A stretch of DNA of 64,000 bases from Halomarina rubra (GCF_023699475.1 NZ_JALXFV010000003.1:754154-818153), one strand, 5' to 3'; counted from the first letter of the stretch, positions 10,669 to 36,739 are shown. Notes: generated by a model from the sequence alone, not told the origin. Numbers and translations: made by a program.

Positions 10669-11661
10669 ATGGATTTCCCAGCAGAACGAGATGATACGCC
10701 CAAAGTGTGGAGGCTTCGATCAGGTTACCTTGAGAACTGGCCCGACTGGAAGGACCACGATATTGTCTCGGTCGGGTGGGATATCGGCGCAATCAGAGGG
10801 GACGTCTCCGACGAACCTGCGATATCTGACGGGTGCGACTCGCTTGATGAAGTCGAGAGTGAAGTCAACCGACTGATCGAAGAGAGATATGCTGATGACG
10901 AAGACGACGACGTAAGCCTTGCGTACGGTGCGGTGAAGACAGTAACGGCGACCCGAAGCGATCGGTACTTCGCTCCTGGTGATTACGTCATCGTGTTTGG
11001 GCACAAGATTCGCGGACAACCCGTCATCCATGGGGTGGCTCGTCTCAAAGAGTATGTTGGTAACAAGCACCCTATCTCGAAGGAGAGCCACCCGTACCAA
11101 TGGGAGGTTGAATACTTAGCCAAAGGGCCAGTCCGGAAGCACGACCTATCGGAGAAGTTCGACGGGGGGAGTCTGAATCTATTCCTTCGCCCGACACTCT
11201 GGAGGTTCCGTGATGCGAAGGAAGAGGACGTCAAAGAACTCGCGAGGGAGATTGGTGATTTAGTCGGTGAGAAGAAGGACATCTCGCTCTCCCAGTCGTA
11301 CTTCGACTACAAGGAAATTGACATGCAGCGATACCTCGGCGACAACATCAACCTGCTGCCGTATGATATCCAGAAGACAACTCCTGAATTCTGTATCGAC
11401 GACGACAACAGAGCAGATTTCTACTGTGAGCTGACCGACGGCGAGACGCTTATCGTTGAGACCAAACAGCATCATGCGACCACCGACAACTTGGACCAGC
11501 TCAATGGATACATTGAGGCCCATCGGAAGGAAACAGGTAAAGATGCACAAGGGTGCCTGATTGCTCCTGGTTTTGTCCAGGAAACCATAGACAAGGCAGA
11601 TAATCATGACATATTGTGTCTGCGGTTCGTCCCACATGCTGAGTTGGAACCTCTCCACTAA
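10669..11661 (+). CDS. Mrr/NucS-like PD-(D/E)XK nuclease with N-terminal sensor-like domain
   Basis: 330 residues. The C-terminal 110 residues carry the nuclease core: RADFYCEL near 248 supplies the aspartate, and LIVETKQ near 262-268 gives the E-x-K pair, followed by a LNGYIEAHRKETG helix, as in NucS and Mrr-type enzymes. The N-terminal 180 residues contain a WRLRSGYLENWPDW start and a DYVIVFGHK strand that resemble small base-sensing (EVE/PUA-like) modules found in modification-dependent restriction enzymes. It precedes the first GHKL cassette on the same strand with a 200-base gap containing a separate promoter. A modification-dependent nuclease is the best guess. Confidence 0.65.
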   Translation: MDFPAERDDTPKVWRLRSGYLENWPDWKDHDIVSVGWDIGAIRGDVSDEPAISDGCDSLDEVESEVNRLIEERYADDEDDDVSLAYGAVKTVTATRSDRYFAPGDYVIVFGHKIRGQPVIHGVARLKEYVGNKHPISKESHPYQWEVEYLAKGPVRKHDLSEKFDGGSLNLFLRPTLWRFRDAKEEDVKELAREIGDLVGEKKDISLSQSYFDYKEIDMQRYLGDNINLLPYDIQKTTPEFCIDDDNRADFYCELTDGETLIVETKQHHATTDNLDQLNGYIEAHRKETGKDAQGCLIAPGFVQETIDKADNHDILCLRFVPHAELEPLH

Positions 11662-11862: not shown

Positions 11863-13803
11863 ATGCCCTCAGAATCTGCTCGACCGGAGGACTGGTGGTT
11901 CAAAGAACAACCACCAGGACAATCTCACAGCCCAGGGCTGCTGCAGAAGAAGACCCTCGATAGAAGCTTGGAGACCTTCGTCAAGGAAGTTCTCCAGAAT
12001 ATCAATGACGCGGGTCTTGATAACGACTCCCCCGTTGAGGTCACCTTTCGTCTACTCGAATTTGATGAACCTAGTGAAGTGTTCAAGAACGCCATCTGTT
12101 GGGACTCTCTCCTGGAACACGTCCGCGCAGCGAAGGAAGAACAGGATGGGCCTGGATTGGACGACTATATTGACTACCTGGACGATGGTGGGACGCTTAG
12201 GCTCCTCATCGCAGAGGAGAAGAACACGAGTGGTATCCAGGGCGATGAGGTGTCCACGGAGGGCGACTATGCAGCGCTGGTCAGAGACCCCGGGAGTAGC
12301 AACAAGAGTGGAGACACCGGTGGGAGGCATGGGTTGGGAAGTTCCGTCCTGTGGGTTGCTAGCGGTCTCCAGACGGTCCTTTTCAACTCGTACTTAGACG
12401 AAGAACTCTCGGGACAGGAGTCTCCTCGCCTAGTAGGGCGATCGTTCGTCCCGACGCACGCCACTTCAGATGGTCAGTGGTACGACAACGAAGGGTGGTT
12501 TGGTTCTCCGACGGGTATCGAAAATCCTGATTTGGAGCGACCCGAGTCGGTATGGGGGGACGTCGCTGAGGGGTTGGCTGAGGAGCTATCGTTGAATCGC
12601 CCAGGGGAAGCGGGGACGAGTACGATGGTGGTCGGCTTCCGAGACCCCTCCGACCCGTCAATGGAGGAACAACCTTCCCCCGCGGAGATAGCGGATACGT
12701 TTGAGGAAACTACTGCTGATTACTTCTGGCCCGCGATAAGCCGTGGAGAGCTTGAAGTGCATCTCAATATGGCTGGAGACGTCCGCCACATCACCGATGA
12801 AACGATTCGCGATCACGAGAGGGTCGCACCCTTTATCGCGTGTTACGAGAACCGCGAAGGGGCTGCTGATTCGCTGAACGGCCCAGGGAGCGTCGCGAAC
12901 ATAGAGTTTGAGTACGAGATTCAGAGTCGGAAGGACAGCGAGACGCCAGCCTCCGGGCCTGTCTCACTCGCCGCGCGGCGTGCATATCCTGGTGAGGAGG
13001 AGCGGGTTGGAGAGATTGCACTCTTCCGTGGGTCGGGAATGGTGGTCCAGTACAAACCTGGTCATCATCTCGGGTTTTCCGAAAAGTTCCACGGCGTGCT
13101 CGCATGTGGGAACGCTCGGCCAGGGATGGAAGACGAACCGACTGATGAGGACAGTGCCATCGACAAGTTCCTAGCGATGGCCGAACCGCCTGCTCACGAC
13201 GATTGGATTGGTGAGAAGAACGACGAACTCAAAGGGACATATGAGTCGGGGTGTGTGAAGTGCATTAAGCGACTGAAGAAGCAACTGCTCCGAAAACATT
13301 TATCGAAGCTCCTCTACGGGGCACGCGAGAGTACCGGGCAGTCGTATCGTCCGTCTCGAGATATCGTACCGAAGATAGCACGCTCAAATGGGAGAGAAAC
13401 GAGTCGCTCCACTCCCAGCCTCGCAGCTCCCTTCGATTGGGAGGTGACCGACTCAACGGTTGACCGGAACCGATGGACGTTCCGTGGTTGGATCGAACCG
13501 ACAATTAACGGTTCCAATCGTGTGGCAGAGTGGAGCGTTATTGTGGAGATGGCGGCGATGTTCGAAGACAACCGCGAAGCGTCGAAGATACCGGTTGACG
13601 AGGTACGCATCGATTCGGCTAGCAGTGATGGCCGCGTTGACGACGGACGAGGTGTGATCAAGGCTACAGAGGACTCTGGTAGGATTTGGTTCGACATCCG
13701 ATCAAAGGTGTTCGCAGACCGTGATCCGAGATTGGGCGATGTGGGTGAGACGAAATTCAAAATCGTTGATGGTTCCATCACCGTTGAGGAGGTGTCCTCA
13801 TGA
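11863..13803 (+). CDS. GHKL (Bergerat-fold) ATPase, gene A of cassette copy 1
   Basis: 646 residues from the ATG at 11863. The first 200 residues carry GHKL ATPase motifs: the N-box EVLQNIND with Glu42, Asn46 and Asp49, a degenerate second motif (RLLIAEEKNTSG near 125) and a glycine-rich lid GGRHGLGSSVLW near 170. The family includes MutL, Hsp90 and MORC-type ATPases, some of which occur in restriction-modification loci. The remaining 400 residues are not recognised. It is clearly paralogous to the protein at 34690-36597. The second motif has Glu where the paralogue has Asp (VVEDRNTTG), which may weaken ATP binding. Its stop overlaps the next start as ATGA. Role in defence is inferred from context. 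Confidence 0.7.
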   Translation: MPSESARPEDWWFKEQPPGQSHSPGLLQKKTLDRSLETFVKEVLQNINDAGLDNDSPVEVTFRLLEFDEPSEVFKNAICWDSLLEHVRAAKEEQDGPGLDDYIDYLDDGGTLRLLIAEEKNTSGIQGDEVSTEGDYAALVRDPGSSNKSGDTGGRHGLGSSVLWVASGLQTVLFNSYLDEELSGQESPRLVGRSFVPTHATSDGQWYDNEGWFGSPTGIENPDLERPESVWGDVAEGLAEELSLNRPGEAGTSTMVVGFRDPSDPSMEEQPSPAEIADTFEETTADYFWPAISRGELEVHLNMAGDVRHITDETIRDHERVAPFIACYENREGAADSLNGPGSVANIEFEYEIQSRKDSETPASGPVSLAARRAYPGEEERVGEIALFRGSGMVVQYKPGHHLGFSEKFHGVLACGNARPGMEDEPTDEDSAIDKFLAMAEPPAHDDWIGEKNDELKGTYESGCVKCIKRLKKQLLRKHLSKLLYGARESTGQSYRPSRDIVPKIARSNGRETSRSTPSLAAPFDWEVTDSTVDRNRWTFRGWIEPTINGSNRVAEWSVIVEMAAMFEDNREASKIPVDEVRIDSASSDGRVDDGRGVIKATEDSGRIWFDIRSKVFADRDPRLGDVGETKFKIVDGSITVEEVSS

Positions 13804-14810
13804 AGGAGATTCGACTGAACAAGAGCATGTCCTACCGGACGTACCCCCACCGGTGCGAACCGGGATCGTTGGACTTCACTGTCAGGGAATACTCACTCAA
13901 CGGTGAATCAACGAGCGAGGTGGACGGCGACCGCCTAATTGACGTGACGGAGTACGAGGGATGGGAGACGCTCTCGTTGGAACTTGAGGTAACGATTCCA
14001 GAGGGGCTTCTAGGGAAGGTGTTCCCAGAGTTTGGGGAGATTCCGGGGATGCTCGCCGTTACCGTACACTGCCGTGACACCTACCTTCGTGATCGGTTGG
14101 TGTTGCGACGGGACCCAATTAGCTCCGGAACGTATTCTAAGACGTGGGAGTTCAACGCTCAGGAGGTGACCGGGTCGATTGACTTGCGTCCGCTTCTTCT
14201 CCGGACGACCGATGCCGAGGACTCCGGTGCTTATGCCACCGATGCTGGGGTGTTCGTAGCTGACGGAGAGAGGTGGCGTGTAGAGCTCAATGACGATAGC
14301 GGCGAAGGCGAGGATTTGTTCGATATTCGCGGGACCGAATTCAGTTCGAAGCGTGAATCCAATCCAGCTAGTCGCTTCCCCGCAAAAGACCGGCTATACT
14401 ATCTCGATCTTGAATCGGATGCCGAGATTCCCGTCCTATGGCTGAACGAGGACCACGAAGAGGTTGTGCCGTTGCTCCAGAGCCCTGAGGGGCAATACGA
14501 GAAGCTGACATCGGAATTGGCGTGGAATCAGGTGATGACACCCGTTTGGACTCGACTCATTACCATCGCAGCGACACAGTACGATTCAGACGACGAGGAG
14601 TGGCCGTTGGATTGGCAAGGGGCCGTCTTTGACAAGCTGCACGATGCGTTCTACGAGGACCATAGCCCGGAGAAGGCTGCCGAACGGCTGCAAGAAGAAC
14701 TCTCCGAGTCTATTGAAATTGCCACCAAGAGAATTGATGATGCCGTACAGGCACTGCTTGACCCAGCCGAATACTACACGAAACACGTGCGAACTCTTTC
14801 AGATAAATGA
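13800..14810 (+). CDS. Unrecognised protein, gene B of GHKL cassette copy 1
   Basis: 336 residues, mostly beta-strand-like in the first two thirds and helical at the end (an acidic helix region from about 270). I do not recognise the family. It is paralogous to 33683-34693: both begin with an SYPYR/TYPHR-type motif, share VTVHCRDTYLRDR versus VTIRCRETIYRDR near residue 80-95, and share the DGLYYLD/DRLYYLD segment near 200. It overlaps the ATPase gene by ATGA at the front and the third gene by ATGA at the back, so all three proteins are probably made in fixed ratio as a complex. No catalytic motif is visible. Confidence 0.6.
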   Translation: MKEIRLNKSMSYRTYPHRCEPGSLDFTVREYSLNGESTSEVDGDRLIDVTEYEGWETLSLELEVTIPEGLLGKVFPEFGEIPGMLAVTVHCRDTYLRDRLVLRRDPISSGTYSKTWEFNAQEVTGSIDLRPLLLRTTDAEDSGAYATDAGVFVADGERWRVELNDDSGEGEDLFDIRGTEFSSKRESNPASRFPAKDRLYYLDLESDAEIPVLWLNEDHEEVVPLLQSPEGQYEKLTSELAWNQVMTPVWTRLITIAATQYDSDDEEWPLDWQGAVFDKLHDAFYEDHSPEKAAERLQEELSESIEIATKRIDDAVQALLDPAEYYTKHVRTLSDK

Positions 14811-15547
14811 CCCAGACGAAGCTGATGAGATTGAACCACGAAGCGAGACAGTTGTTGGACGACAAAGCATTCCTCAATGGTGGGGAGGGTAGAGTATACT
14901 TCGACGAGACAGAACTTGAGCAGTACACTCAGCCTACAGACCATACTGCAGACCTGGACATCTTGGAAGACCGCCTCCGGAAGATTGTCGAGGACCACGA
15001 CGAGTATGCTGGGGAGATGGATAAGGAGGCAGCTGTTGCTGTTCATGAGGAAATCGACCTGACTCGTAGCGCTGCGAGCGATTCTGGGATGTGGAACGAC
15101 CTCGCAATGCGGAGATTCCCTTGGTTCGTCCGTCACAGGTGGAGGTACGAGAGCGAAACGGGCATGAAGAAGAAGTTCTGGACCTATGGAGCCGCGCTCG
15201 ACTCTGCTTCGAGTACCTTCGAACGCCTCTGGTGGATTGCGGAGCTGACACAGGAGGACGGTTGTTACAAGAACACGAGGAAAGTATTCGAGAGTCGTCG
15301 ATTCTGCTTCATGATGTTCGACACCCAGATTGGTCGATACAAACCCGCAGCGCTCGCATGTCTTGATGCTCTCTATGACGATGAGGGTGAATCGTTCGCG
15401 TCCAACGAGGTCATTGATGCGACAATTAAGCGTCTTCGTCGAGCCGGCACTACGATTCCACTCGAAGGAAGGACCAAGACCGAGTTAACCGATATCGTCC
15501 AGAGCATCCGTGCGGATGTTGAATCGAATACCGAAGCCGGTCTGTAG
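14807..15547 (+). CDS. Unrecognised helical protein, gene C of GHKL cassette copy 1
   Basis: 246 residues, predicted mainly helical. It is paralogous to 32934-33683. The shared core runs from a VHEEIDLTR/VHRRLDISR motif through RFPWFVRHRWRYE versus EFPEFVRYRWEFN to the nearly identical RLWWIAELT at about 145-153 and an RYKPAALAC/RYRPAAVAC helix. No nuclease or nucleotide-binding motif is visible. It closes the three-gene operon. I cannot name the family. A structural or adaptor role with the ATPase is inference. Confidence 0.6.
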   Translation: MTQTKLMRLNHEARQLLDDKAFLNGGEGRVYFDETELEQYTQPTDHTADLDILEDRLRKIVEDHDEYAGEMDKEAAVAVHEEIDLTRSAASDSGMWNDLAMRRFPWFVRHRWRYESETGMKKKFWTYGAALDSASSTFERLWWIAELTQEDGCYKNTRKVFESRRFCFMMFDTQIGRYKPAALACLDALYDDEGESFASNEVIDATIKRLRRAGTTIPLEGRTKTELTDIVQSIRADVESNTEAGL

Positions 15548-15772: not shown

Positions 15773-17596
15773 TCACACTGCGCTCGTCTCAATATCGGAA
15801 AATTCTATCCAGATATTAACGCACTCGTTCACCAGTTCTTCATGTCGCTGTTTGAGTCGTTTTGGCGTCCAACTATCATGCCGAGCCAGGTCGTTCGTGA
15901 TTTGGAAGTCGCTCTTCTTTTCGAAGTACTCGAGATATTTTTTCGGAAATGGTCGATTTCCGGCCTTGTAGTTCTTCCGACCATCTAGAAGGACTAGATT
16001 TCCAAGTCTGTTCGTCCACTTCTCGCGCTCAAGTTCGTCGCTGAAGCGCTGCATCCAGTATCCACTGGTCGGGTTTTGGGGAAGGATATGCTCAACATTG
16101 ATGTTCTGACCATACTGGATTTTGACGTTCTTGTTGTCGTAGCGCTCCATATTGATGCGCATCAGGACGTACTTCGGCCACTGATAGTTCCCTTTTCTAT
16201 AAAAGTTCCTGAGGTTCAGCGCTTCTTCAAACTCAGTTTGATCTGCTTGGAGACCGTCGCAGAGATTTTCTGATTCTAATGCTTCACGTGGGCCGTCGGC
16301 AGAATCAATATCCTTGAGTATACTGTATATCCGTGAGTATCGATCACTGCTCGAACTACCGGTCAACCAATCAACCGTGAGGCGCCGTTCAAGCTGGCAG
16401 ATGAATCTGAACAGGAGTCCCTCATCATCAAACCGCTTGTCAAACTGTATTAACGCCACTACCCATTCGTCTGACGGGTAGAAATCACGCATCACTGATA
16501 TGAGGTTTGCATAGTAGACATTCTTGGATTCATCGTCTGCTTCTAGTATAGCGTCGTACACACGCTTTCGATGAACGTCAAAGACCTGTTCCAATTCGTT
16601 GACGAAGTCGCTTCCACGGTAGTCCGGGTTCTTGCTGAAGACATCTGTGAACTCATCGTAAATGGACTTCTGCGACTTGTTCTTCACTAGGATGTGTCGC
16701 ATGTATCCTATGAATCGTTCAAGGCCTTCGTTCCCGACCTCTTCTTCCATGTCTTCCCACTTCCGCTGGTAGTCGTCGCGGTCTGAATCGGGTATCTGGC
16801 TGAGGTTCTCACTCTTTAGCAAGTCTGCATTATTGAGCGGCATCCCTCGAGCGTTGGTAACGTTGAACAAGCGGAATGCTGAGCTCAACGAATCGGTCAT
16901 GATTCGCACCATCACGACTAGTTGGGGTATGAATGCAGCGAGAGAGGTGAGGTCATTTCCGTTGTCCTCCCATTGTTTCAATCGTTCGTCAAAGGTCGCG
17001 ACGGCTTGGAGGATGTTCTGTTGTGGTTCCGTATCACCCTCCGCCGGATTCCGCGGGCTGAGGGTTGCTCCCTGGGTTAGTACATTTTTTTCGAAGAATG
17101 CTTGGTCTCGATTTCGGATTCGGAGCCTGACGGAACCCTCTTGTCCTTTGGCGAAATCCTCTTCCTCCTGGACGAAGCGATCTAGCGAAGTTGCCCAACC
17201 TGAATGTTTGAGTCTGTCTCTGAGGACACAGAGTAAGATGGCAACCGAAGTCAATCGTTGCTGCCCATCTATTACGTCAAACCGATTCCCGGTGGATCCC
17301 CCTCGATTCAGAATGATACTCCCCAAGAAGTACGGCTCATATGAATCCCTTCGTGATTTGTTGAGCTTGTGGCTCTCATTCAGCAAATTCCCATATAATT
17401 CGCTGTTAGACTCGTACGCATCTGTTAGATCGTCAACGAGGTCTACGAAGTTTTCTTCAGTCCAGGAGAAGGGTCGTTGGAACTTTGGAATCTGATAGAG
17501 GTAGTCCTCTCCGTAGAGTTTATGAACGAACTCCTCTTCGGCATCTATTTGAGCTCCACTCACTATGAACGTTTGAGTGTCCTGTTGGCGTATCAA
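15773..17596 (-). CDS. GmrSD-like DUF262/DUF1524 restriction protein
   Basis: 607 residues. The N-terminal DUF262 (ParB/Srx-like) domain shows IPKFQRPFSW near 36-45 and the diagnostic DVIDGQQRLTS near 105-115. The C-terminal DUF1524 domain has an HNH-type motif NVEHILPQNP near 500, RLGNLVLLDGRKN near 530 and a final basic helix. Enzymes with this architecture (GmrSD, BrxU, SspE) use NTP through the first domain and cut phage DNA carrying modified bases or act with phosphorothioation. No dnd or ssp genes are present here, so a GmrSD-type modification-dependent role is favoured. It converges on the end of GHKL cassette 1, about 225 bases away. Confidence 0.85.
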   Translation of the reverse strand: MIRQQDTQTFIVSGAQIDAEEEFVHKLYGEDYLYQIPKFQRPFSWTEENFVDLVDDLTDAYESNSELYGNLLNESHKLNKSRRDSYEPYFLGSIILNRGGSTGNRFDVIDGQQRLTSVAILLCVLRDRLKHSGWATSLDRFVQEEEDFAKGQEGSVRLRIRNRDQAFFEKNVLTQGATLSPRNPAEGDTEPQQNILQAVATFDERLKQWEDNGNDLTSLAAFIPQLVVMVRIMTDSLSSAFRLFNVTNARGMPLNNADLLKSENLSQIPDSDRDDYQRKWEDMEEEVGNEGLERFIGYMRHILVKNKSQKSIYDEFTDVFSKNPDYRGSDFVNELEQVFDVHRKRVYDAILEADDESKNVYYANLISVMRDFYPSDEWVVALIQFDKRFDDEGLLFRFICQLERRLTVDWLTGSSSSDRYSRIYSILKDIDSADGPREALESENLCDGLQADQTEFEEALNLRNFYRKGNYQWPKYVLMRINMERYDNKNVKIQYGQNINVEHILPQNPTSGYWMQRFSDELEREKWTNRLGNLVLLDGRKNYKAGNRPFPKKYLEYFEKKSDFQITNDLARHDSWTPKRLKQRHEELVNECVNIWIEFSDIETSAV

Positions 17597-20470: not shown

Positions 20471-21376
20471 TCACCCGATCGGCATCTTGACCCGTCTCGA
20501 ACATCGGTACACCTCGTCGAAGACCGCTGCCACGTCTTTCACAGGAGGTCCCCGGAGTTTCACACCGAGTTCGAAGTTCGATGTGAGACTGGTAGCTGTG
20601 AAATTCGCACTTCCTACGTAGGCTACGGTGTCGTCTACGACGACGATTTTTGCGTGGGTCGCAGTTGTCTGATACCCCGCGTCGTCCAACTCGTACAGCT
20701 CTCTGACATTGAACAGGTAACGCTGGTCGGTGCTCAGGCTGTGATACATCTCGTTCAGCACCGTGCGGTGTTCTGCGTGGTCAGTCTCTCTGGTGAGGAG
20801 CCTCGTCTCAACCCCCTTCCGTGGGAGCGCGACTACGTCTCTGAGGATTCGTTGGCCAGCATCGAAGTACGGATTGGCAATCCTGACGGACTGCTTCGCC
20901 TCAAGAAGCATACTTCGTAGCCTGGGAGCGAGGGGACCGATACGTGGCCCAGACAGACGGGAGGTGTCGAATTTAGCAGGCACAGTTGCCAATATTTCCA
21001 CGACGGTTTCGTCCTCGCCATCTGTTCTCGCCCGCTGCTCCAGTACGCGTGTGGCGACCAACTGTTGGTACAGAACGTCGGTCGCCTGTTCCACCCGTAT
21101 CTGGTACTCGGAGTGTCGGAGCGAGCTGCCAGAGGTCGTCCTCGTTGCCGCATCGTTCAACAACAGCCCGATGAGGAAGGCTTCTTGCTCCGTTGAGTCC
21201 ACTTGCACGTCGTCGAGACTCTCGAATAACTCGGTCCCCTTCCCTACCCAGACGTCTACGCTCTGATCGGCGAACCACTCCCAGAACGACGCGACGCGGT
21301 CAGTGTCTCGAAGCACTTCCGCGATCGAGAAGTCTTCACACGCTGAGGCACCGTCCTTGGCGTGGTCAGATCCCAT
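20471..21376 (-). CDS. drmC: DISARM DrmC, phospholipase-D-family protein
   Basis: 301 residues from the ATG at 21376, which overlaps the drmB stop by 11 bases. A longer frame to 21505 would run far into drmB and is rejected. A PLD active-site motif stands near residue 250: THAKIVVVDD then GSANFTATS, the HxK(x4)D...GSxN pattern. A less conserved first half-site lies near residue 165 (IANPYFD). DrmC is a PLD-like protein of the DISARM core and can be dispensable for some phages. Only one clear HKD motif is visible, so activity would need a dimer. Gene order drmA-drmB-drmC supports the name. Confidence 0.85.
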   Translation of the reverse strand: MGSDHAKDGASACEDFSIAEVLRDTDRVASFWEWFADQSVDVWVGKGTELFESLDDVQVDSTEQEAFLIGLLLNDAATRTTSGSSLRHSEYQIRVEQATDVLYQQLVATRVLEQRARTDGEDETVVEILATVPAKFDTSRLSGPRIGPLAPRLRSMLLEAKQSVRIANPYFDAGQRILRDVVALPRKGVETRLLTRETDHAEHRTVLNEMYHSLSTDQRYLFNVRELYELDDAGYQTTATHAKIVVVDDTVAYVGSANFTATSLTSNFELGVKLRGPPVKDVAAVFDEVYRCSRRVKMPIG

Positions 21377-23267
21377 CTTCTGCGATATCCCAGAACGCCG
21401 GAACGTGTTCGCCGTCACCCGTGAGTACCCTCCGATCCAGTGTGTTGTTGAAGAATTCGCAAGTGAACTCACTAACGTGCATGCAAGCGTGGCACGCAGC
21501 ACCACCCTCGCTGTCCATACAGGCGGGGTCGTAGATGCACTGTCCTGCGTGCTCCTTGGCGCGATCGACCCAGTTGTGCAATCTGGTCTTGAACAGAGTG
21601 AACATCCCCCCCAGCGCGAAGTGTTCCATGCTCTCGGCGTACAGCACGATAGCTGGAACGGTAGGGAGGATCAGTTCGGAGATGCTGTCAGAATCCAGCC
21701 CACACTGCTCGCTCGCCGTTCCCATCAATGCGTGGCTCGCCGTGTGGAGCAACCGGTACACCTGTTCTGTCGTCTCATCTTCGATATCTGTGAATGGATT
21801 CTCGACTTCTGTCGGGTCTACGTTCTCCAAGAACCACCGCTTGAGTTCGACCTCGTCGTCCAAGTCGGGTGCATCGGCCCCGCTCAGTTCACCTGCCTCA
21901 AGTAACCACTCAACGATGGCGGCTCGGTCGACCTCTAATACGATTGCTTCGGACGGTGAGCGATCACCGAAGACGGTTAGCGAGTCACTTGAGCCAACCG
22001 AGTCGAACTCTCGGAGTTCAACTCGACGAGCGTCGGGTTCGTCACGGCTGTATCCGTAGACGACCGAAAGCAGTGGAAAGCTGTCTACTACCCATGCGTT
22101 GGTTACCTTCAAATCGTCCAGCAGATCACGGTAGAGGCCCGCTTGTCGGTACCGTCTAACGAATTCTTTGTCGTCGACGAACTCGCCGAGAGACCGTGGT
22201 ACGGGGTGACGATCGATGCTTCGAACCTCGGCAGGGTCACCTTCGTAGCCGTCGGTCGCTCTCATGAAGGTGAACAACTCGTGAGCGATTCTAGCGTAGC
22301 GTCGGGAGTCGTCTGGGAGGTTAACATATTGCTCGTTCTGTTTCACGATCTCGACCCGACCAGGTACGTTCGAAGCGGCGTCACCGAGGGCGCCGATGAT
22401 CTTCTCAGCAGTTTCGGGAGGGACGTCCTTCAGCTCCTCCTCGATTGAGGCCAACTGGTCTTCGTCGATACCTGCGCGAGTGGCAACTTCTTCGAGTGTG
22501 ACGCCCTCTAGAGAGAGGTCAAGCCTTCCGAGGTGAGCGTGCATGAGAATTCTGGCCCAGTCCTCGTCGTACCTCAGGTCTCGACCGTCTACACCTACCG
22601 GAGGGATGTCTACCATCACTTCCCGGTGTGGATAGTAGACAGAGCCGCTCTGAAGCGGCCTGGCACTCTTCACCCAGTCTCCACACCGGCTGCACTGCCC
22701 CTGTAGGCCTTTCGTGGCTTGACGGCACTTTCGACATCTGAACGAGAACGTAGTCATGTCGTCGGGGTCACCACGTTTCAAGTAGACGTCGTCCCAGCTG
22801 TGTCCCGACTTGTTGCACGGGCTTGGCTCGATGTTCGTCACGGCGCCACAGTCGTGAACGAGAACGAACTGGATCTGCTTGAGCCGCCCGTCACAACCCG
22901 TTTGCTGACAAAACCCGTTGGTGCTACCGAGGTGCTTGAGACTCTTCGGACGGAAGACACCCTTACAGTCGCGGCAAACCATCGTCTGAGGGAAGAAGTC
23001 ACCCTGAACTTCGGTTGGACGATACATCTCTATGACAGTGTTGTCGAGATCGTTCCAGGGAGGGGTGTCGCTGTTTTTGAACTCTGAGATAGCTCCGGCG
23101 ATTCGGTTCGCCACCCGTCGTCCGTCTACGGAGTCCATTCGCTCCGTCTTCCAGTCGTCAACCTGCATTGAGAACCCTTCCTGCCCGTAGCTGAAGATTG
23201 CTCCAGGCGTGAAAGACCCGAGTACTTGTGCCATGCCGCGCCGCATCTCTGCGTTACTCTCTTGCAT
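21366..23267 (-). CDS. drmB: DISARM DrmB, DUF1998 protein
   Basis: 633 residues. It begins with a conserved AQVLGSFTPGAIFSY start, then a cysteine-rich middle (CRDCKGVF, CQQTGC, CRKCRQATKG, CSRCGDW near 100-210) that should bind zinc. It ends with the DUF1998 signature, a cluster of cysteines (CIYDPAC, CHACMHVSEFTCEFFN) near 585-615. DrmB pairs with the DrmA helicase; the complex recognises and loads on phage DNA ends or forks lacking self methylation. The start ATG shares its A with the stop codon of drmA (TGATG), so translation is coupled. Confidence 0.88.
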   Translation of the reverse strand: MQESNAEMRRGMAQVLGSFTPGAIFSYGQEGFSMQVDDWKTERMDSVDGRRVANRIAGAISEFKNSDTPPWNDLDNTVIEMYRPTEVQGDFFPQTMVCRDCKGVFRPKSLKHLGSTNGFCQQTGCDGRLKQIQFVLVHDCGAVTNIEPSPCNKSGHSWDDVYLKRGDPDDMTTFSFRCRKCRQATKGLQGQCSRCGDWVKSARPLQSGSVYYPHREVMVDIPPVGVDGRDLRYDEDWARILMHAHLGRLDLSLEGVTLEEVATRAGIDEDQLASIEEELKDVPPETAEKIIGALGDAASNVPGRVEIVKQNEQYVNLPDDSRRYARIAHELFTFMRATDGYEGDPAEVRSIDRHPVPRSLGEFVDDKEFVRRYRQAGLYRDLLDDLKVTNAWVVDSFPLLSVVYGYSRDEPDARRVELREFDSVGSSDSLTVFGDRSPSEAIVLEVDRAAIVEWLLEAGELSGADAPDLDDEVELKRWFLENVDPTEVENPFTDIEDETTEQVYRLLHTASHALMGTASEQCGLDSDSISELILPTVPAIVLYAESMEHFALGGMFTLFKTRLHNWVDRAKEHAGQCIYDPACMDSEGGAACHACMHVSEFTCEFFNNTLDRRVLTGDGEHVPAFWDIAEDGI

Positions 23268-26200
23268 CAGTGGTCACCCTGCTTCAACGACTCTACTACG
23301 TACGTGGAGTACCTGTTCGGGACGATGTCGACCTGACGGTCGATATCCCTGAGACTGTTCATCGGTCCGTGCTCGTCGTCGCTATCGCCTTCTACTACGT
23401 TGGCGATGAACTCACCTCGGCCGTCCTTCGAGAGCGGATCGTCCAAGAGTCGATCCCAGACTTTGTCGAACTGGTCTTCGATTCGGTCTCGGTAGAGGTT
23501 CATACCGTGAATATCCGCCCACTCGGTCTCCTGTTCCTCCGTCACCGAGTACGCCCGCAGAACGAAGTCGAGAGCGTCTCGTCTAGTGATGAGGTCTGCC
23601 TCAAAGGCTTCGTTGAAACCGTCGAACATGTACAGCCTCTTCTCGGTTTGTCCTTCGAGTACGAAGTCGTAGTACTGTAGGAACAGGCCGACGATTACCC
23701 CAGGCATCGTCCGGTCGATGGCGAACTGCGCCCAGCGCTCCAACGGAGTCGCCTCGACGAGCAGGTCTTGGTAGCGGTGGTAGTGCTCGAACCGGGTGTA
23801 GTGAGATCGGTCACGAGCGCGCATCGCGTCGAACAACACGAATACTGAACCGGAATGCTTCCGACCGACGCGGGAGTACGCTTGAATGTACTCGGCAGTG
23901 TTCCTCGGCATCCCGAAGAACGAGATGAAGTTCAGCTTGTTGACGTCGACACCGTGTGAGATCATGCTCGTAGCGATCACGATGTCGATGGGTCGTACCG
24001 GGTCGTCGGCTTCGAGACGAGAGAGCGAGTCTCTGACGACGTCCATGTCCGTCTCCCCCGTCAGAGCCACGGACCGCAATGTGTGATAGGGGTCACCGAA
24101 GGCCTCCAGCTGCTCATTGATCATCTGTTGGACGGTTCGTTGGAGCATGTCACTCCTAGTCTTCGCAATATTGTACGAGACCTGTACTTCGTACTGCTTG
24201 AGCAGCTTCTTGAGGAGTTCGTGGCGGTCTGGTTCAGACTCGGGGAAGTCGAGGGGCCCACCGACGACGGATTCGTTGAGTTCGTGGATCGCATCTTCGA
24301 GTTCCGAGAGGTCAGCCTGGAGTTCCTGTACGATCATCGCTCGCTCTCTGATGATCGAGTTTATCGCTAACGTTCTCGAGATCGTCCGAGGAATCGCACC
24401 GATCATTCGTCGCCCGAGTTCGTGTGGGTCCTCGTAGGCGTAGAACGACTGATGAAGCCGAGGGCCAGCAGTCGGGAAGGTGTTGGAGTCGCGCCAGTAC
24501 AGCGCGTTCACCTGATTCTGCGCACCCTTGATCGTCGCCGTCGCCGCGACGACCTTCATGTTCCACCGCCCGTCCGTGTACCGGTTGATCAGTTCTTGAA
24601 TGAACGTCTCGTAGTGAGAGTCGAAGGCCCCGAACTCCTCACGGAGCAAGTGGAGTTCGTCCTGAATGAGGATCGATGGGGGGTCGGTCGTCTCGACAGA
24701 CTCCAAGTTCTGATTGTCGCATTGGAACTGTGAGCCGTAGCTGTTGCCGTCTGCAACGAGGCACTCGGACTCGCCCGTATAGCCGTGCTTCGGGCAGTAG
24801 TTCTTCACCTGACCGAAGAGCGACCGCATCCGACGTTGCCACCCCACGATAGCGATCTTGTCGATCGTACTGACGACGAACGTCGGTGTGTATCGGTACA
24901 CCTCTTCGTCGGTGATGTAGATCGGCAGCTCGGCGGTCTCTCCACCTTGTTCCTGTACTTCTGGGCAGTCGGAGTTGGTGCACTCGTGGACGATACGCAT
25001 TCTGTCCAGATCGCCCGTCAACTCTACCGTACCGTCCTCCTCGCAGAACGGACAGTCTGGAACCGTCAGCCACTCGTCTTGTAGATCCGAGTCCTCCTTC
25101 GCCAGCTCAACGTTGTTGGTGTCCGAGCCAGAATAGCTCTTGTCGTAGGTCTTGTTCGGAGTGTTCTGCTGTCCGACGAAGTACCCGACACTGAACCCGT
25201 CACCACCCATCTCGTCGTGGTTACGACGAACGACTTCGGCTCGACACAACACGTCCGTGATGCGTTGGAGTTGCTGGAGTGAGAGGAGTCGAAGGGGGAA
25301 CTTGGTAAGTGCCGTCATCCCGTGGTTCTTGCCCCGCAGCCGGTCGTGGAACGCGGTCATGACGACCAGCCCGAGATACGCCTCGGTCTTTCCACCACCC
25401 GTCGGGAAGTAGATCACGTCGGCCACGTCAAGCGACGTATCGATATCGCGCTCTGGGTCGGCTTGTTCAACGATGTCTGGGATGGACATGACGATGAAGA
25501 CTATCTGGAAGAGTCGCCACTTTTCGTACTTGTCACCGAGCGAGTCGAACGTCTCGTTGAGTGCTCTGAAAGCCGCTTGGACACGCTCGTCGGACTGAAT
25601 GAGTTCACGACCCTGCTGGAACCGGTCACGTTCTCCGGCGAACTCTTCGAGGGTTTCTTCGAACTTCTCGGCTGCTTCGTCCGTTTTGTCGCCTGCTAGG
25701 ATATCCCCTCGGACGTCTCGGTACTGTTTGAGGGCAATCTCCATCTCGTCTTGGATGTTCTCAAGTACCGAGTCAATGTCTCCGTGAGCGAGTTCCTTGA
25801 ACGGTGCTTCGATCGTGCCTCGGGAGTTGGTCTCCCTAGAGTGGTACTTGGGCTGTTGGTAAATCGGGACCGAGTTCGTTCGGAGTCCAGTGACGGGGTC
25901 GCTTCCGATACGCTCCACCGAACAGTTCTCACCGATCCCGTAGATGTTCCCGTCGTACTGGTAGTGGTCTCTGATCTCTTCGGAAGGGAACGAACGGAAC
26001 ACCGGGGACTCCGCCGTCACCGATAGACCTGCGTCGTAGAGGTGTGCTTGCCAGTCGTTGTCGGGTTTAGTGTCGGTTTCGATGGACTCTCCGTGCGTGT
26101 TCACGAGGCTGATCGAAACCGAGATGTTGCCGTCGTCTCGTTGCCGTGCCACCACACGGACTTTCGCACGCCAGAGGGCGGGCTTCGGCTGGTCGCTGAA

Positions 26201-26980
26201 GTTGTCTGCGAGGTGTTCTTCGAACGCCTCTTCGTCTGTCAGGGCCTCACCTGGGACTTCTTCGGCGTCCCACTCGTTGACCCCCGACGCAGGTTCACAC
26301 AGTACTCTATCTGCCCGAGCGTACTCGTTTCGCGCCTCGTCGAACGTTGCGGTCAGTGAGTACTCCTCAACCTGTCGCAGCCTAGCAGCGTCTCTGAGAT
26401 CCGTCCCAGAGATAGATACCGTTTCGAAGTCGGGGTCAAGACGTTCGTAGACCGAGAGCATGGTCTGGTCTTCTAACGAGCTCGTTCCACCGTCGGCCAT
26501 GGCTTCCCGCTCTTCCGGCGTCATGGCCGCGTCGTCGTATCGACCTGATCCGACTTCACCGAACCTCTCTTGTTCGTTGTACGTCGGGAGTCGCTGGTAG
26601 AACAGTTTGGCCTGAGGTGTTACTTCGATATCGATCCCACTGATGTCGTCCGGATCCACCTGGAATTTCAGCCCGATAGAGAACGGGGAAACGTCTTTGG
26701 CGAAGTTCTGGAAACTGTCGTCCTCTTCTTGCGCCTCTCGATATCGATACTGGTCGGCGAGTACTCCTGCGAAACACCGACGACTGGGGGTGTTCCCGTA
26801 CAACGTCGCTTGTCGAGGACCGCGCCCGGTGATGTGGTTGATGAGTCGCTCGGAGATGACGTGGTCCACAGCTTGGTGCCGTCGGTACTCTGGGTCGGAT
26901 TCGATCTCGTAGGCGCCGTCTGGTGGACGAGTGTACTCGGGCGCCCCACGTGGTGGGATGGTCTCGAACCGAGGTTCCAT
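23267..26980 (-). CDS. drmA: DISARM DrmA, SF2 helicase
   Basis: 1237 residues. Helicase motifs occur in order: Walker A YFPTGGGKTEAYLGL near 525, a zinc-ribbon insertion with CPFCEEDG and CTNSDC near 650-690, the DELH box (LIQDELHLLREE) near 772, motif V region ATSMISHGVDVNKLN near 1005, and motif VI EYIQAYSRVGRKHSG near 1035. Large helicases of this type with DUF1998 and PLD partners define DISARM, which blocks incoming unmethylated DNA. The 500-residue N-terminal region is not recognisable by motif. It is followed immediately by drmB, and preceded after 72 bases by the drmE candidate. Confidence 0.88.
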   Translation of the reverse strand: MEPRFETIPPRGAPEYTRPPDGAYEIESDPEYRRHQAVDHVISERLINHITGRGPRQATLYGNTPSRRCFAGVLADQYRYREAQEEDDSFQNFAKDVSPFSIGLKFQVDPDDISGIDIEVTPQAKLFYQRLPTYNEQERFGEVGSGRYDDAAMTPEEREAMADGGTSSLEDQTMLSVYERLDPDFETVSISGTDLRDAARLRQVEEYSLTATFDEARNEYARADRVLCEPASGVNEWDAEEVPGEALTDEEAFEEHLADNFSDQPKPALWRAKVRVVARQRDDGNISVSISLVNTHGESIETDTKPDNDWQAHLYDAGLSVTAESPVFRSFPSEEIRDHYQYDGNIYGIGENCSVERIGSDPVTGLRTNSVPIYQQPKYHSRETNSRGTIEAPFKELAHGDIDSVLENIQDEMEIALKQYRDVRGDILAGDKTDEAAEKFEETLEEFAGERDRFQQGRELIQSDERVQAAFRALNETFDSLGDKYEKWRLFQIVFIVMSIPDIVEQADPERDIDTSLDVADVIYFPTGGGKTEAYLGLVVMTAFHDRLRGKNHGMTALTKFPLRLLSLQQLQRITDVLCRAEVVRRNHDEMGGDGFSVGYFVGQQNTPNKTYDKSYSGSDTNNVELAKEDSDLQDEWLTVPDCPFCEEDGTVELTGDLDRMRIVHECTNSDCPEVQEQGGETAELPIYITDEEVYRYTPTFVVSTIDKIAIVGWQRRMRSLFGQVKNYCPKHGYTGESECLVADGNSYGSQFQCDNQNLESVETTDPPSILIQDELHLLREEFGAFDSHYETFIQELINRYTDGRWNMKVVAATATIKGAQNQVNALYWRDSNTFPTAGPRLHQSFYAYEDPHELGRRMIGAIPRTISRTLAINSIIRERAMIVQELQADLSELEDAIHELNESVVGGPLDFPESEPDRHELLKKLLKQYEVQVSYNIAKTRSDMLQRTVQQMINEQLEAFGDPYHTLRSVALTGETDMDVVRDSLSRLEADDPVRPIDIVIATSMISHGVDVNKLNFISFFGMPRNTAEYIQAYSRVGRKHSGSVFVLFDAMRARDRSHYTRFEHYHRYQDLLVEATPLERWAQFAIDRTMPGVIVGLFLQYYDFVLEGQTEKRLYMFDGFNEAFEADLITRRDALDFVLRAYSVTEEQETEWADIHGMNLYRDRIEDQFDKVWDRLLDDPLSKDGRGEFIANVVEGDSDDEHGPMNSLRDIDRQVDIVPNRYSTYVVESLKQGDH

Positions 26981-27052: not shown

Positions 27053-30000
27053 TCAGTCGTCAAGGTCGGTCACGTCTTCGATGCTCTTGACCTCGTGCCG
27101 TGAACTCTGAGAAAGCAATCGCTCGGCTTCGGGGCCTCCTCGCGCGAGATCTTTCGCCACACTGCTTCGGATTTCCCGTCCCTGGCTGATGTGTGCCCCT
27201 CGAATCTGTCTGAGTCCCTTGTCGACGAGAGCACCTCGTTCCCCAGTCAGTTCAGGTCTGTCGAACGCCGACCCGACGAGTTGGATGTCTCGAACGTCTC
27301 TCGGCCCCATCGTCAGGCTGGGGTCACGGGCTAAGTCCAACGCATCGTCGGCGGCGAGAACGGACTCGAACCAGTGCCGAATACGGTTCTCGCCACGCTC
27401 GACACCTGCATCCTTGACGGCCCAGACGATGTACTCTAAAGAGTCTTCATGGTCGATCTCCTCAGCTTCGAAGTCCCGCTCAACTTCGCGCACGATGTCT
27501 CGTAGGGTATCGTACCAGACACGGAGTTGGTCGGTTACCTTTCCCCCTTCGAAGTCGTCGTACTGGTCGTCGAGCCATTCGTCCCAAAGCTGGTACCAGA
27601 GGCCGTCATCGATGACCAAGATGGTGGATCCAGTGGCCAGCTCCGACGGAGACACCCACTTGTAGGTGGTGTCGACACCACGGCTGTGAGCCACCTTCTC
27701 TTCTACCAATAGGGTAGAGCCAGAGTCGCGGTACAGGACGCCTTCCGACGTATCGATACGGAACGACTGCTGTTCGTAGTCGTCGTAGCGATCTTCGTCG
27801 TGTGCGTACTCAGTGTCCATCCTCAGTTCGTCGAGGCTCGCTGCGAAGCTCTCCTGCGTTGCTCTCGCTTGCTCTGGCTCCGAGTCAGCTGGCTCGAAAG
27901 ACCCGGAGTCGTCTTCTGAACCGACACCGTAGACGTTGACGTCTGGATACGGGATCGGCTGCGACTCTGTGGCTTGGAACGCTCGATTGACTTTGTCTAC
28001 GAACCGTCTGAGCCGTCGGTCGATCATCCCTCGCCACCGACCGCTGTAGGTCAAGACGGTGACCTCGTCGGGCGCTGGGTGGAGTAAGAACCCTGCTTGT
28101 TGACTCCGCTGAGGACCGACGACGAGGAGTTCGTCACAGTCGGAGATAAACCTGACAGAGTCGCGGTCGACGATTTGAATTCGCCCTGGTCTGAACGCGT
28201 CTTCACGGACTTCTCTGTCGGACACGAGCCGCTCCTCAAGAACTCTTCGCCAAGCAGGTGTGGGTGTGTACACCGCGATAGACCTCCTCTCTTTCTCGGC
28301 GTCAGAGACGCGCTCACAGACCGCCTCGTAGAGCGTGTTGCGCTGTTCGAGTGCCCGGAGGAGGTACTCCAATTGTTCGTGAACGTCGGAGGTACCAGCA
28401 CGAGCCAACATGTCGACACCTCGTTTGAACTCGTCAAACTCGGTTACGAACTCGTCCATCGTCCACGACCGCTGGCCTCGTTTGCTCTTGCGACGTTTGT
28501 CCAGAACCCACCGGTCGTACTCATCCGCCAGCACGGGGAGCCTCTCGAACCGCTGTAGGTACGAAAACGAGCGCCAGCCGGCGTGTTCGGCCCCGAAGTC
28601 CAAGAGATCAGTCGCTGCTTCGTAGCCCTCGTTGAGGTGCTCCTCGATCGGTCCGGCGTCAACGGCCTCGATACGCACCTCACGACCAGTCCCGAGAGAC
28701 GACAAGTCTCGATCTCCTTCGAGCGGGAACTCGCTGCGCTGCTCCGACTCTTCGGACGACTCGTCGATTACGTCACGGACAGTCCGTGTATCGGGGAGAA
28801 CTCCCGCGCTCGGAACGTCGGGCGGACAGTACTGTGGCACACGGTTGCCGTCGTACTGGTGCTTCGTGTAGAGGCTGTACATCGGGCAGACGAGCTCGTC
28901 CGACGCACTGGTGATATCGTCAACGACGTCCTCGTCTTCCTCCGTAACTCGTGAGTGGAAATTGAAGAGGGTCGGCCCTGCACCTTCGATAGGGTTCAGC
29001 TCGTCAGCGCTGGAGACCAGGACGAGCGTCGACGGACCTGGTGGACCCCCCATGCACTTCTGCTCCCCCTGGGAGACGTAGCTGTGAGGAAGAATCTCGT
29101 CGAGTGGTATCACCTTCTGCTCGGAACCGTTTCGAAGTGGCTCGGGGACTTCGACTCCGTACCTTTCATACTCCTCTCGTACGTCCCCCTTCCCGCCCCA
29201 CTGTGTCGAAGTACCTTTGGTGTAGAGAGCGGTGTCGGTGCCATCAGCTACTCCCTCAAACAGCACCGAAACGGCGCACGCCACAGTCGTTCGGGGCCGG
29301 AAAGACGGCCAGAACACAGGGACAGTTCGACCCTCAACCGCTGCCCGTCGTAGTCCAGTCAAGAGAGACTGACCGAGTGTACCTGTAGTGAGAGCCAGCC
29401 ACTCGTTCTGTGACCTGTACTTGAGAACGTCCAGCGTCTCGGACAACCAGAGGAGGGCCGGCTCCCCGCCGGTAGCCCTCAGTAGCGATTGGAGGTACTC
29501 TTCGGTGCTCGTCGAAGTGGACGAGGCGTAGACTCTCACCACCTCCTGTGCCTGCTTGGTGAGCGCTCCGTCCACCGCTAATTCGGCAATTTCGTCGATA
29601 GAGTCGCTGAGGAGGGTCGGACGATGTACCGCGGCGGCTCCGGAGAACTTTAGACCTCTGCGGCGAGTGGACTCGTCGTCACTCTCAAGCCACTCCAAGT
29701 ATCGTGTAGCGGCTTGTCTCACGGTGTCACCCTCTACCCCCGTACGAAGTAGCGTATCGAAGGCGTTGACAGCAGCCGACGTTCGTTCCTCCGTGGCTCC
29801 TTCGTCAATGTCGACCGCTTCAGTGAGGGTAGATATCGACAAGTCGTCTCGCGCTGAGGTTCGGAGTATCCGCACGAACGCGTCACCGACCAGTTCGCCG
29901 TTCGGTCCCTCCAGTAGGTCGAACATATCCCGCTCACGTTGTACCAAGAACGCCGGCTGGTACCTTGCAAGAAAGAGGAGTGCCTCCGCCACGTCAGAGT

Positions 30001-30532
30001 CGTCTGCGGTCTCTCCCGAACTGAGCTCCGTCAAGATCGATTCAACACCGGCTTCGAATCCACGCTCAATGGCCACCTTGACAGAGTCGACTTCCGTCTC
30101 GTACCGGTCGTCAAGGGCCTCCAGCGCCTCCAGGTCGCCTGTCGAACCGAGAGCGTGGGCTAGTGGCGCCCTCACCTCGGGACCTTCTTCGTCCAGCGAG
30201 CGAAGGAGCGTTCGCGGGGTATCTACCACACCTGCACCCACCGCTCGTGGGCATTCTTGCGCCCACTCGGTCAGTAGGTTCTTCGCCTTCAGTCTAGTCA
30301 ACGCGTTGCTCCCGCTGGCGATGTTCACTAGCTCTCTCGAAAACCGACAGACATCGTCGGAGTCGACACTCGCCGATTCGAGTTGACATAGGGCGTCGTA
30401 CTGTCTCTCTTCGGACTGTAACTCACCAAGTAGCCCGCCACTCTCGTTGAAGCCTTCGCTCAACAGAATCCCCCCATCAGCCACCCACCCTGAGCTGTCA
30501 ACACTTTGCAGTGCCCGAAGTGGTGTTCTCAA
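27053..30532 (-). CDS. Large protein upstream of drmA, DrmE candidate
   Basis: 1159 residues if the TTG at 30532 is the start; inner GTG or TTG starts are also possible because no ATG lies near the front. The first 300 residues contain helical repeats of HEAT type (RAPLAHALGSTGDLEALEAL). A middle region has WGGKGDV and CMGGPPGPSTLVLVSS, and the last third holds RSIAVYTPTPAWRRVL and DELLVVGPQRS, strands suggestive of a helicase-like or Rossmann core without a P-loop. Class 2 DISARM loci carry a poorly characterised drmE before drmA, and this gene sits in that place, so the name is positional. It could equally be a new DISARM accessory scaffold. Confidence 0.5.
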   Translation of the reverse strand: MRTPLRALQSVDSSGWVADGGILLSEGFNESGGLLGELQSEERQYDALCQLESASVDSDDVCRFSRELVNIASGSNALTRLKAKNLLTEWAQECPRAVGAGVVDTPRTLLRSLDEEGPEVRAPLAHALGSTGDLEALEALDDRYETEVDSVKVAIERGFEAGVESILTELSSGETADDSDVAEALLFLARYQPAFLVQRERDMFDLLEGPNGELVGDAFVRILRTSARDDLSISTLTEAVDIDEGATEERTSAAVNAFDTLLRTGVEGDTVRQAATRYLEWLESDDESTRRRGLKFSGAAAVHRPTLLSDSIDEIAELAVDGALTKQAQEVVRVYASSTSTSTEEYLQSLLRATGGEPALLWLSETLDVLKYRSQNEWLALTTGTLGQSLLTGLRRAAVEGRTVPVFWPSFRPRTTVACAVSVLFEGVADGTDTALYTKGTSTQWGGKGDVREEYERYGVEVPEPLRNGSEQKVIPLDEILPHSYVSQGEQKCMGGPPGPSTLVLVSSADELNPIEGAGPTLFNFHSRVTEEDEDVVDDITSASDELVCPMYSLYTKHQYDGNRVPQYCPPDVPSAGVLPDTRTVRDVIDESSEESEQRSEFPLEGDRDLSSLGTGREVRIEAVDAGPIEEHLNEGYEAATDLLDFGAEHAGWRSFSYLQRFERLPVLADEYDRWVLDKRRKSKRGQRSWTMDEFVTEFDEFKRGVDMLARAGTSDVHEQLEYLLRALEQRNTLYEAVCERVSDAEKERRSIAVYTPTPAWRRVLEERLVSDREVREDAFRPGRIQIVDRDSVRFISDCDELLVVGPQRSQQAGFLLHPAPDEVTVLTYSGRWRGMIDRRLRRFVDKVNRAFQATESQPIPYPDVNVYGVGSEDDSGSFEPADSEPEQARATQESFAASLDELRMDTEYAHDEDRYDDYEQQSFRIDTSEGVLYRDSGSTLLVEEKVAHSRGVDTTYKWVSPSELATGSTILVIDDGLWYQLWDEWLDDQYDDFEGGKVTDQLRVWYDTLRDIVREVERDFEAEEIDHEDSLEYIVWAVKDAGVERGENRIRHWFESVLAADDALDLARDPSLTMGPRDVRDIQLVGSAFDRPELTGERGALVDKGLRQIRGAHISQGREIRSSVAKDLARGGPEAERLLSQSSRHEVKSIEDVTDLDD

Positions 30533-32286: not shown

Positions 32287-32931
32287 GTGAGTGAGACCGC
32301 GATTCGTTTTCGAGAAGACCTCATGACGTGGGCGAAGGGGGAGATCAGAGAGTACCCGTGGCGAGCCCCGGACGCATCTCTCTACGAAGTTTTCGTAGCA
32401 GAGTTCTTCCTCACTCAAACACCCGCCGACAACGTCGCTGACGTGTATCCAGAGTTTCTGGACGAATTCGACTCACTGGCAACTATCGACGAATCCCACG
32501 AAGACGAGCTGGTGGCTGCGATTGAGCCACTCGGCTTCCACAACATGCGTGCCGAGGCCCTAAAACGAATTGCTACCAACCACGACGAACTGCCAACAGA
32601 GCCAGAGCGATTACGATCCCTTCCTAGAGTAGGGCCGTACGTCGCCAACGCGACGCTCTGTTTCGCACTGAAACGCCGGATACCGATTGTCGACAGGAAC
32701 GTCGTTCGCGTCTACGAGAGGGTGTTCGGGGACGCTTTCCCTCAAAGCGATAGTGCACGAGAAGCGTTCGCTGAAGAGATGCTACCTGCGACGGGCGAAG
32801 AGGCACGAACGTACAATCTCGCACTGCTAGACTTCGGAGCACTCGTTTGTCACAAACGAAGTCCCGACTGCCCGGTGTGTTTCGCGTCGGGCTACTGTGA
32901 ATACGCGGTCGGATTGGCAGAGGATCAGTGA
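32287..32931 (+). CDS. HhH-GPD base-excision glycosylase, MutY/MIG-like
   Basis: 214 residues from GTG at 32287. A VAEFFLTQT helix near residue 35-43 matches the MutY substrate-binding helix. The helix-hairpin-helix reads LPRVGPYVANA at 112-122, the catalytic aspartate is D136 in IVDRNVVRV, and a 4Fe-4S cluster is formed by C188-x6-C195-x2-C198-x5-C204. At the position of the Nth lysine it has Tyr118, as in the T:G-mismatch thymine glycosylase MIG of Methanothermobacter, which protects against deaminated 5-methylcytosine. Two C5-cytosine methyltransferases within 8 kb fit that role. An adenine glycosylase (MutY) is the alternative. Confidence 0.75.
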   Translation: MSETAIRFREDLMTWAKGEIREYPWRAPDASLYEVFVAEFFLTQTPADNVADVYPEFLDEFDSLATIDESHEDELVAAIEPLGFHNMRAEALKRIATNHDELPTEPERLRSLPRVGPYVANATLCFALKRRIPIVDRNVVRVYERVFGDAFPQSDSAREAFAEEMLPATGEEARTYNLALLDFGALVCHKRSPDCPVCFASGYCEYAVGLAEDQ

Positions 32932-36597: not shown

Positions 36598-36739
36598 ATC
36601 GTAATCCCGTGATGTACCGACGCTCGTCTCGCGTCAGGATAGTTCGTTCGGTCGGGTTCGCTAGTGGTATCGACGGACCGTTCTCGGCGCTCTGCCACTA
36701 ATGAATGATATTTGTGTCTCCACCCCGTCGACTCACGAC

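Follow-up and report, generated by a model that had tools for sequence, protein, structure and literature searches.

To our knowledge, no role has been established for the MORC and paraMORC ATPases of prokaryotic restriction loci, although their link to restriction dates from 2008. In that year, Iyer and colleagues described paraMORC2, a GHKL family of restriction-modification loci that is marked by an ExxxH motif located C-terminally within the S5 domain; its neighbours include C5 methylases, Vsr, restriction endonuclease (RE)-fold nucleases and a superfamily II (SFII) helicase (PMC2292703). The other described systems closest to the present case are PDC-M33, a PADLOC label for a phage-defence candidate that is catalogued but uncharacterised, the Mza system (mzaABCDE) and class 2 DISARM, in which unmethylated DNA carrying a 5′ overhang activates DrmAB, while double-stranded DNA is not bound (PMC9142583). 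Here we analyse two three-gene cassettes, or triplets, in a stretch of 64,000 nucleotides from Halomarina rubra (GCF_023699475.1 NZ_JALXFV010000003.1:754154-818153), referred to below as the window. Each encodes a putative GHKL ATPase (A) and two further proteins (B and C). Sequence comparisons across the Halobacteria identify such cassettes as a conserved, non-redundant pair, in which one lineage (the core) is nearly fixed and the other (the partner) is exchangeable.

The partner cassette (copy 1) lies on the plus strand, where the genes for A (11863..13803, 646 residues), B (13800..14810, 336 residues) and C (14807..15547, 246 residues) are joined by two 4-base overlaps. The core cassette (copy 2) lies on the minus strand, with A at 34690..36597 (635 residues), B at 33683..34693 (336 residues) and C at 32934..33683 (249 residues), joined by one 4-base overlap with a GTG start and one 1-base overlap. 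A preliminary description of this DNA had placed the triplet at 11863-15547 and again at 32934-36597, and both copies are indeed intact, with the positions and lengths it gave; its "ATGA junctions" hold for copy 1 but only roughly for copy 2. BLASTP comparison of the copies over nearly their full length yielded identities of 36% for A (E = 2e-102), 29% for B (E = 9e-32) and 38% for C (E = 2e-49). This similarity is far beyond chance, but the level of identity and their separation on phylogenetic trees rule out a recent duplication and agree with the earlier view of two old lineages. The Halomarina rubra genome contains no A genes other than these two.

A and C of both copies match PDC-M33 by score (PDC-M33A, E = 8.6e-20 for copy 1 and 3.1e-23 for copy 2; PDC-M33C, E = 6e-12 and 6e-16, respectively). 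The B proteins of the window have no match to the PDC-M33B model, which bacterial B genes in the equivalent position match at E-values from 8e-66 to 7e-28. Judged in this way, all three proteins can be placed in PDC-M33, A and C by score and B, more tentatively, by synteny with bacterial M33B, and the earlier statement that the partners of the ATPase could not be matched to a named system is not quite accurate. The haloarchaeal cassettes nevertheless differ from PDC-M33 in that their B falls outside the M33B model, and their twin arrangement, their link to DISARM and their pairing with methyltransferases appear in none of the papers searched. When the cassette proteins were scanned against Pfam, C alone was recognised, as DUF6339 (PF19866, above cut-off; E = 8.6e-17 for copy 1 and 2e-21 for copy 2).

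The four GHKL motifs (N box, G1, G2 and GT) are present in the A proteins, consistent with the GHKL type assigned in the preliminary description. In an alignment of 22 A proteins from haloarchaea, myxobacteria, one cyanobacterium, one actinobacterium and one bacillus, residues E47, D54, G134, G164, G167, G169, G261 and T262 are invariant, and N51 and D129 are nearly so. E445 and H449, which form an ExxxH motif, are invariant in haloarchaea and bacteria. In the lineage of copy 1, termed "a", a serine replaces the lysine of the G2 motif, while the GHKL motifs and ExxxH are otherwise conserved. Profile searches of A against Pfam, a paraMORC-like alignment and PDB sequences returned no link to any GHKL family. 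The features of A fit a paraMORC2-like GHKL ATPase, by a motif match to the 2008 description of that family rather than by sequence comparison with its members. Shared with paraMORC2 are the GHKL motifs, the ExxxH toward the C-terminal side, and an association with SFII helicase, RE-fold nuclease, Vsr and C5 methyltransferase. The 2008 text considered makes no mention of B or DUF6339 partners, of a paired arrangement or of DISARM (PMC2292703).

An AlphaFold model of the core B protein (predicted local distance difference test, pLDDT, 87) contains an immunoglobulin (Ig)-like β-sandwich at residues 17-170 and a helical C-terminus, and B of copy 1 is assigned the same fold through its homology. 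The core C model (pLDDT 91) is all-helical, and a fold search of the PDB gave no match for it. Recognisable nuclease motifs or features were not found in the models or sequences of B and C, and B was rejected as a nuclease because its model is an Ig-like sandwich with middling fold matches (Z about 8).

To place the pair in context, we surveyed 391 Halobacteria genomes, counting triplet carriers via DUF6339. Thirty genomes are carriers, 25 of which hold two or more copies, and copies sharing a contig lie 0.9-18 kb from their neighbour. This neighbourhood survey, of a kind proposed in the preliminary description, showed the triplet to be conserved, mostly paired and situated in defence loci; its patchy presence across these genomes and its place in such loci rule out a housekeeping role in haloarchaea. 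The order A-B-C is kept in all 30 triplets of a first set of 15 loci. Trees of A, B and C, built separately and combined, contain a distinct core clade, to which copy 2 belongs, with the remaining triplets spread over several lineages. Exactly one intact core member is present in 27 of 34 loci and none in seven, one of which sits on a short contig; no locus has two or more. Two triplets of one lineage were found together in 0 of 29 loci, compared with 9.6 expected from permutation, and when only 12 distinct configurations were considered the permutation mean was 4.0 (P = 0.002); neither the permutation nor the hypergeometric tests take common descent of the loci into account, so these values are indicative only. 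The lineage "a" partner occurs with cores from several core subclades. A degraded second core triplet, with a split A and a short B and C, was observed in Haloterrigena sp. H1 (L062:2159-5514), on a contig that also carries an intact locus. No virus-borne relative of the cassette was found among IMG/VR contigs.

The cassettes are also linked to particular methyltransferases. In 27 of 28 cases, core A is transcribed divergently from a C5 methyltransferase gene; the enzymes concerned form one clade (MT1), separate from the MT2 and MT3 clades in the methyltransferase tree; the MT2 clade comprises methyltransferases of loci with partner triplets. The window contains one enzyme of each of the first two kinds. 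MT1 (36701..37849, plus strand; PF00145, E = 3e-46) is a C5 DNA methyltransferase of DrmMII type (PDLC02651, E = 7e-154) and is divergent from core A, while MT2 (38981..40081, minus strand; PF00145, E = 3e-44; DrmMII model, E = 1e-114) falls within the MT2 clade. No C5 methyltransferase was recognised within 15 kb of copy 1. In 15 loci, lineage II triplets are part of an operon MT5 - GIY-YIG-like - A-B-C, in which MT5 is a short C5-like enzyme. Most of the complete loci combine an MT1 (or MT3) enzyme with a second methyltransferase, which is either MT2 or MT5. MT5 and the GIY-YIG-like protein were assigned by motif, and MT5 also by its phage homologues, which are called "DNA methyltransferase" in mycobacteriophages and are unnamed in haloviruses; profile searches of the PDB gave no match for either protein. 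Homologues of one MT5 (L031:14702-15475) occur in the haloviruses HRPV-9, His2 and Hardyhisp2, with up to 42% identity, and possibly serve as viral self-marking against a triplet defence.

Where the core is missing, another GHKL protein appears to take its place. Six core-less loci have a HATPase_c_3 GHKL (paraMORC-like) protein by the methyltransferase, and none of the core-bearing loci do. The gene overlaps that of the methyltransferase, of the MT3 clade, in three of the six, and the C-terminus of two members resembles, by eye, an RE-fold motif, as in paraMORC3.

In bacteria, triplets are single and not paired. The Myxococcota carry one copy each in 12 of 284 genomes, and in six myxobacterial loci methyltransferase and triplet stand together. 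Scans among these loci confirmed Z1 in two (MzaC, E = 1e-93) and DUF4420 in one (MzaD, E = 1.5e-15), with similar-sized genes in others. These loci, with a methyltransferase and, where scanned, adjoining Z1 and DUF4420, resemble Mza, whereas haloarchaeal loci lack recognised Z1, DUF4420 or AIPR, and the GHKL protein here takes a three-gene form; between or beside the cassettes of the window, no Z1 or DUF4420 gene was recognised. One of the six myxobacterial loci also holds drmA-B-C. On bacterial plasmids, a C5 methyltransferase adjoins the triplet in four of four cases, with Vsr in three and a nuclease in two, EcoRII-C in Arthrobacter and AlwI in Planococcus. A housekeeping role for stand-alone myxobacterial triplets is conceivable.

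DISARM, which the preliminary description had not named, occupies the space between the two cassettes of the window. A class 2 set, drmE-A-B-C, is flanked by the core cassette and the DrmMII-type methyltransferase, with all four genes on the minus strand: DrmC, a phospholipase D (PLD) nuclease (20471..21418; PDLC02601, E = 9e-53; PF13091), DrmB (21366..23267; PDLC02582, E = 1e-172), the DrmA helicase (23267..26980; PDLC02576, E = 0) and a DrmE-like protein (27053..30532). The last of these has no PADLOC match and only a below-cut-off match to DrmE_C (PF24957, E = 9e-4), but a profile of its family matches a RefSeq-annotated DrmE at 7.5e-15. The locus has drmA, drmB, drmC and a DrmMII-type methyltransferase in common with class 2 DISARM and, less clearly, drmE in the form of the DrmE-like gene; the triplets, however, are not DISARM genes, and many DISARM loci lack them. 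DrmA is present in 52 of the 391 Halobacteria genomes, 14 of which also have DUF6339, and in all 14 it lies within 12 kb of a triplet. Between drmC and the core cassette, several loci contain two conserved genes (335 and about 254 residues; L023:8938-10702 and relatives), relatives of which are also found in one DISARM locus without triplets.

Each copy stands beside nucleases or C5 methyltransferases, as had been noted. Core-side neighbours, in addition to MT1 and MT2, are a probable PD-(D/E)xK nuclease between these two (37900..38604, minus strand), recognised by eye from the motif PDFSIE...YIVEAK in an open reading frame with no Pfam, PADLOC, NCBIfam or PHROG match, and an HhH-GPD DNA glycosylase (32287..32931, plus strand; PF00730, E = 2e-10; PADLOC type II nicking endonuclease model, E = 6e-28; mutY model, E = 2e-38, below its cut-off). 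The glycosylase probably repairs deaminated 5-methylcytosine, and its family is found in 10 of the 15 first-set loci. Directly upstream of the partner cassette, a NucS_C-domain (PD-(D/E)xK) protein (10669..11661, plus strand; PF01939, E = 8e-7), which has a weak EndoMS/NucS match among PDB sequences, is a candidate effector. Downstream, between the cassettes, lies a GmrSD-type (DUF262/DUF1524) nuclease (15773..17596, minus strand; PF03235, PF07510); no member of its family occurs in the other first-set loci, and its association is not conserved.

The module logic seen in gene content, motifs, pairing, lineage exclusivity and methyltransferase linkage is well supported. We think it probable, with moderate confidence, that each triplet serves a C5-methylation-dependent restriction system as its ATP-driven sensor module, and that a locus combines two complementary modules, each with its own C5 mark, with shared helicase and nuclease effectors. 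The methyltransferase would mark host DNA, and A dimers, together with B and C, would load on DNA missing that mark. A would then close on ATP, like the clamps of MutL and MORC, and the triplet would recruit or license whichever separate helicase or nuclease is available at the locus. In the window these would be DISARM DrmAB(C) and the nucleases close by, in lineage II the GIY-YIG-like protein, and in myxobacteria Z1 with DUF4420. The unlike cassettes suggest two different self/non-self checks of DNA per locus, and we propose that haloarchaeal loci carry two modules of differing specificity, which would recognise either two distinct marks or the two strands of one asymmetric site. Since DrmAB needs a 5′ overhang and ignores duplex DNA, there is room for an upstream duplex sensor that would read the C5 mark and open or flag the DNA. 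In Halobacteria, triplets travel with C5 methyltransferases. The restriction-like role suggested in the preliminary description is supported, as is the link to such enzymes and to nucleases, and the model given there of a complex that loads on unmethylated or invading DNA is plausible. Several points weigh against the sensor reading, in addition to the indicative standing of the permutation values. One locus has a single triplet but two methyltransferases (G168), and another has four triplets and three methyltransferases (G037). Seven of 13 myxobacterial triplets, the nearest to the haloarchaeal ones, have varied surroundings and no methyltransferase in the stretch examined, so that the methyltransferase link is not obligatory. 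In control haloarchaeal DISARM loci that lack triplets, a methyltransferase of another kind is usually present and a paraMORC-like protein is mostly missing, which also indicates that triplets lie outside DISARM proper. Lastly, A is placed among the GHKL ATPases by its motifs, and its dimerisation and DNA binding are putative.

GHKL ATPases of the MutL/MORC type often heterodimerise, and the nearly universal pairing of one fixed and one variable triplet, never two of one lineage, could also reflect a single obligate heterodimer of core A with alternative partner A proteins, as MLH1 combines with PMS1, PMS2 or MLH3, the triplets being subunits of one system. We regard this as rather unlikely, given that bacterial triplets are single, that core and partner lineages recombine freely ("a" with cores of several subclades) and that each lineage follows its own methyltransferase; moreover, a core triplet stands by itself in one locus, and two pairs (G298 and G339, lineages "a" and "e", with the paraMORC-like protein) have no core. 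Similarly doubtful is one restriction machine in which an invariant core and interchangeable partners setting the target specificity feed unmethylated DNA to DISARM, which would be an archaeal parallel to MLH1 and its alternative partners.

The constant co-location with DISARM (14 of 14 genomes with both), the independent case beside DrmA-B-C in one myxobacterial locus and the finding that triplet-bearing DISARM loci have no methyltransferase beyond the triplet-associated families would be expected if triplets were extra DISARM genes that help DrmAB find its targets but do not themselves restrict DNA. Because DrmA was not detected in 16 of the 30 carrier genomes, DISARM exists without triplets, and bacterial triplets occur with type II restriction-modification genes or Z1/DUF4420, we consider such an accessory role improbable. 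Less probable still is that triplet, DISARM and the other genes are unrelated and merely share a preferred integration site: the islands do hold GmrSD, ApeA, Pycsar and other unrelated defence genes, but chance guests would hardly show the fixed divergent core-MT1 pair, lineage-specific methyltransferases, lineage exclusivity and the mutual exclusion of core and paraMORC-like protein.

Literature searches on DUF6339, on PDC-M33 and on DISARM in combination with GHKL or paraMORC yielded no relevant paper. Already known are the paraMORC ATPases of restriction loci and the family as a catalogued candidate; as far as the literature was searched, the novelty lies in the fixed/exchangeable pair, whose methyltransferases are specific to the lineage, in its setting beside DISARM and in the paraMORC-like replacement. 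The loci amount to a natural exchange experiment, in which the same core is combined with swapped partners and swapped methyltransferases, or a whole triplet is replaced by a paraMORC-like protein. Whether the ATPase senses a missing mark or is a structural component of DISARM can therefore be tested directly in haloarchaea that grow in culture, and the answer may also be relevant to the reading of DNA methylation by eukaryotic MORC proteins.

Other genes of the window were recorded in passing. A 643-residue protein at 18451-20382 has pentapeptide-type repeats and a C-terminal segment that resembles, by eye, an ion-channel pore. The protein at 30677-32131 combines an N-terminal methyltransferase-like part (mad2, E = 1e-12) with a CBS domain and a HEPN-like tail, and matches the DS11 anti-phage family weakly. 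A 391-residue protein at 41747-42922 matches the PADLOC candidate PDC-S11 (E = 1.5e-11). Finally, a second defence-like set at 43024-49541 consists of a 710-residue protein, a Cas4-like nuclease (45092-46072) and a 1158-residue GajB/UvrD-like helicase (46065-49541).

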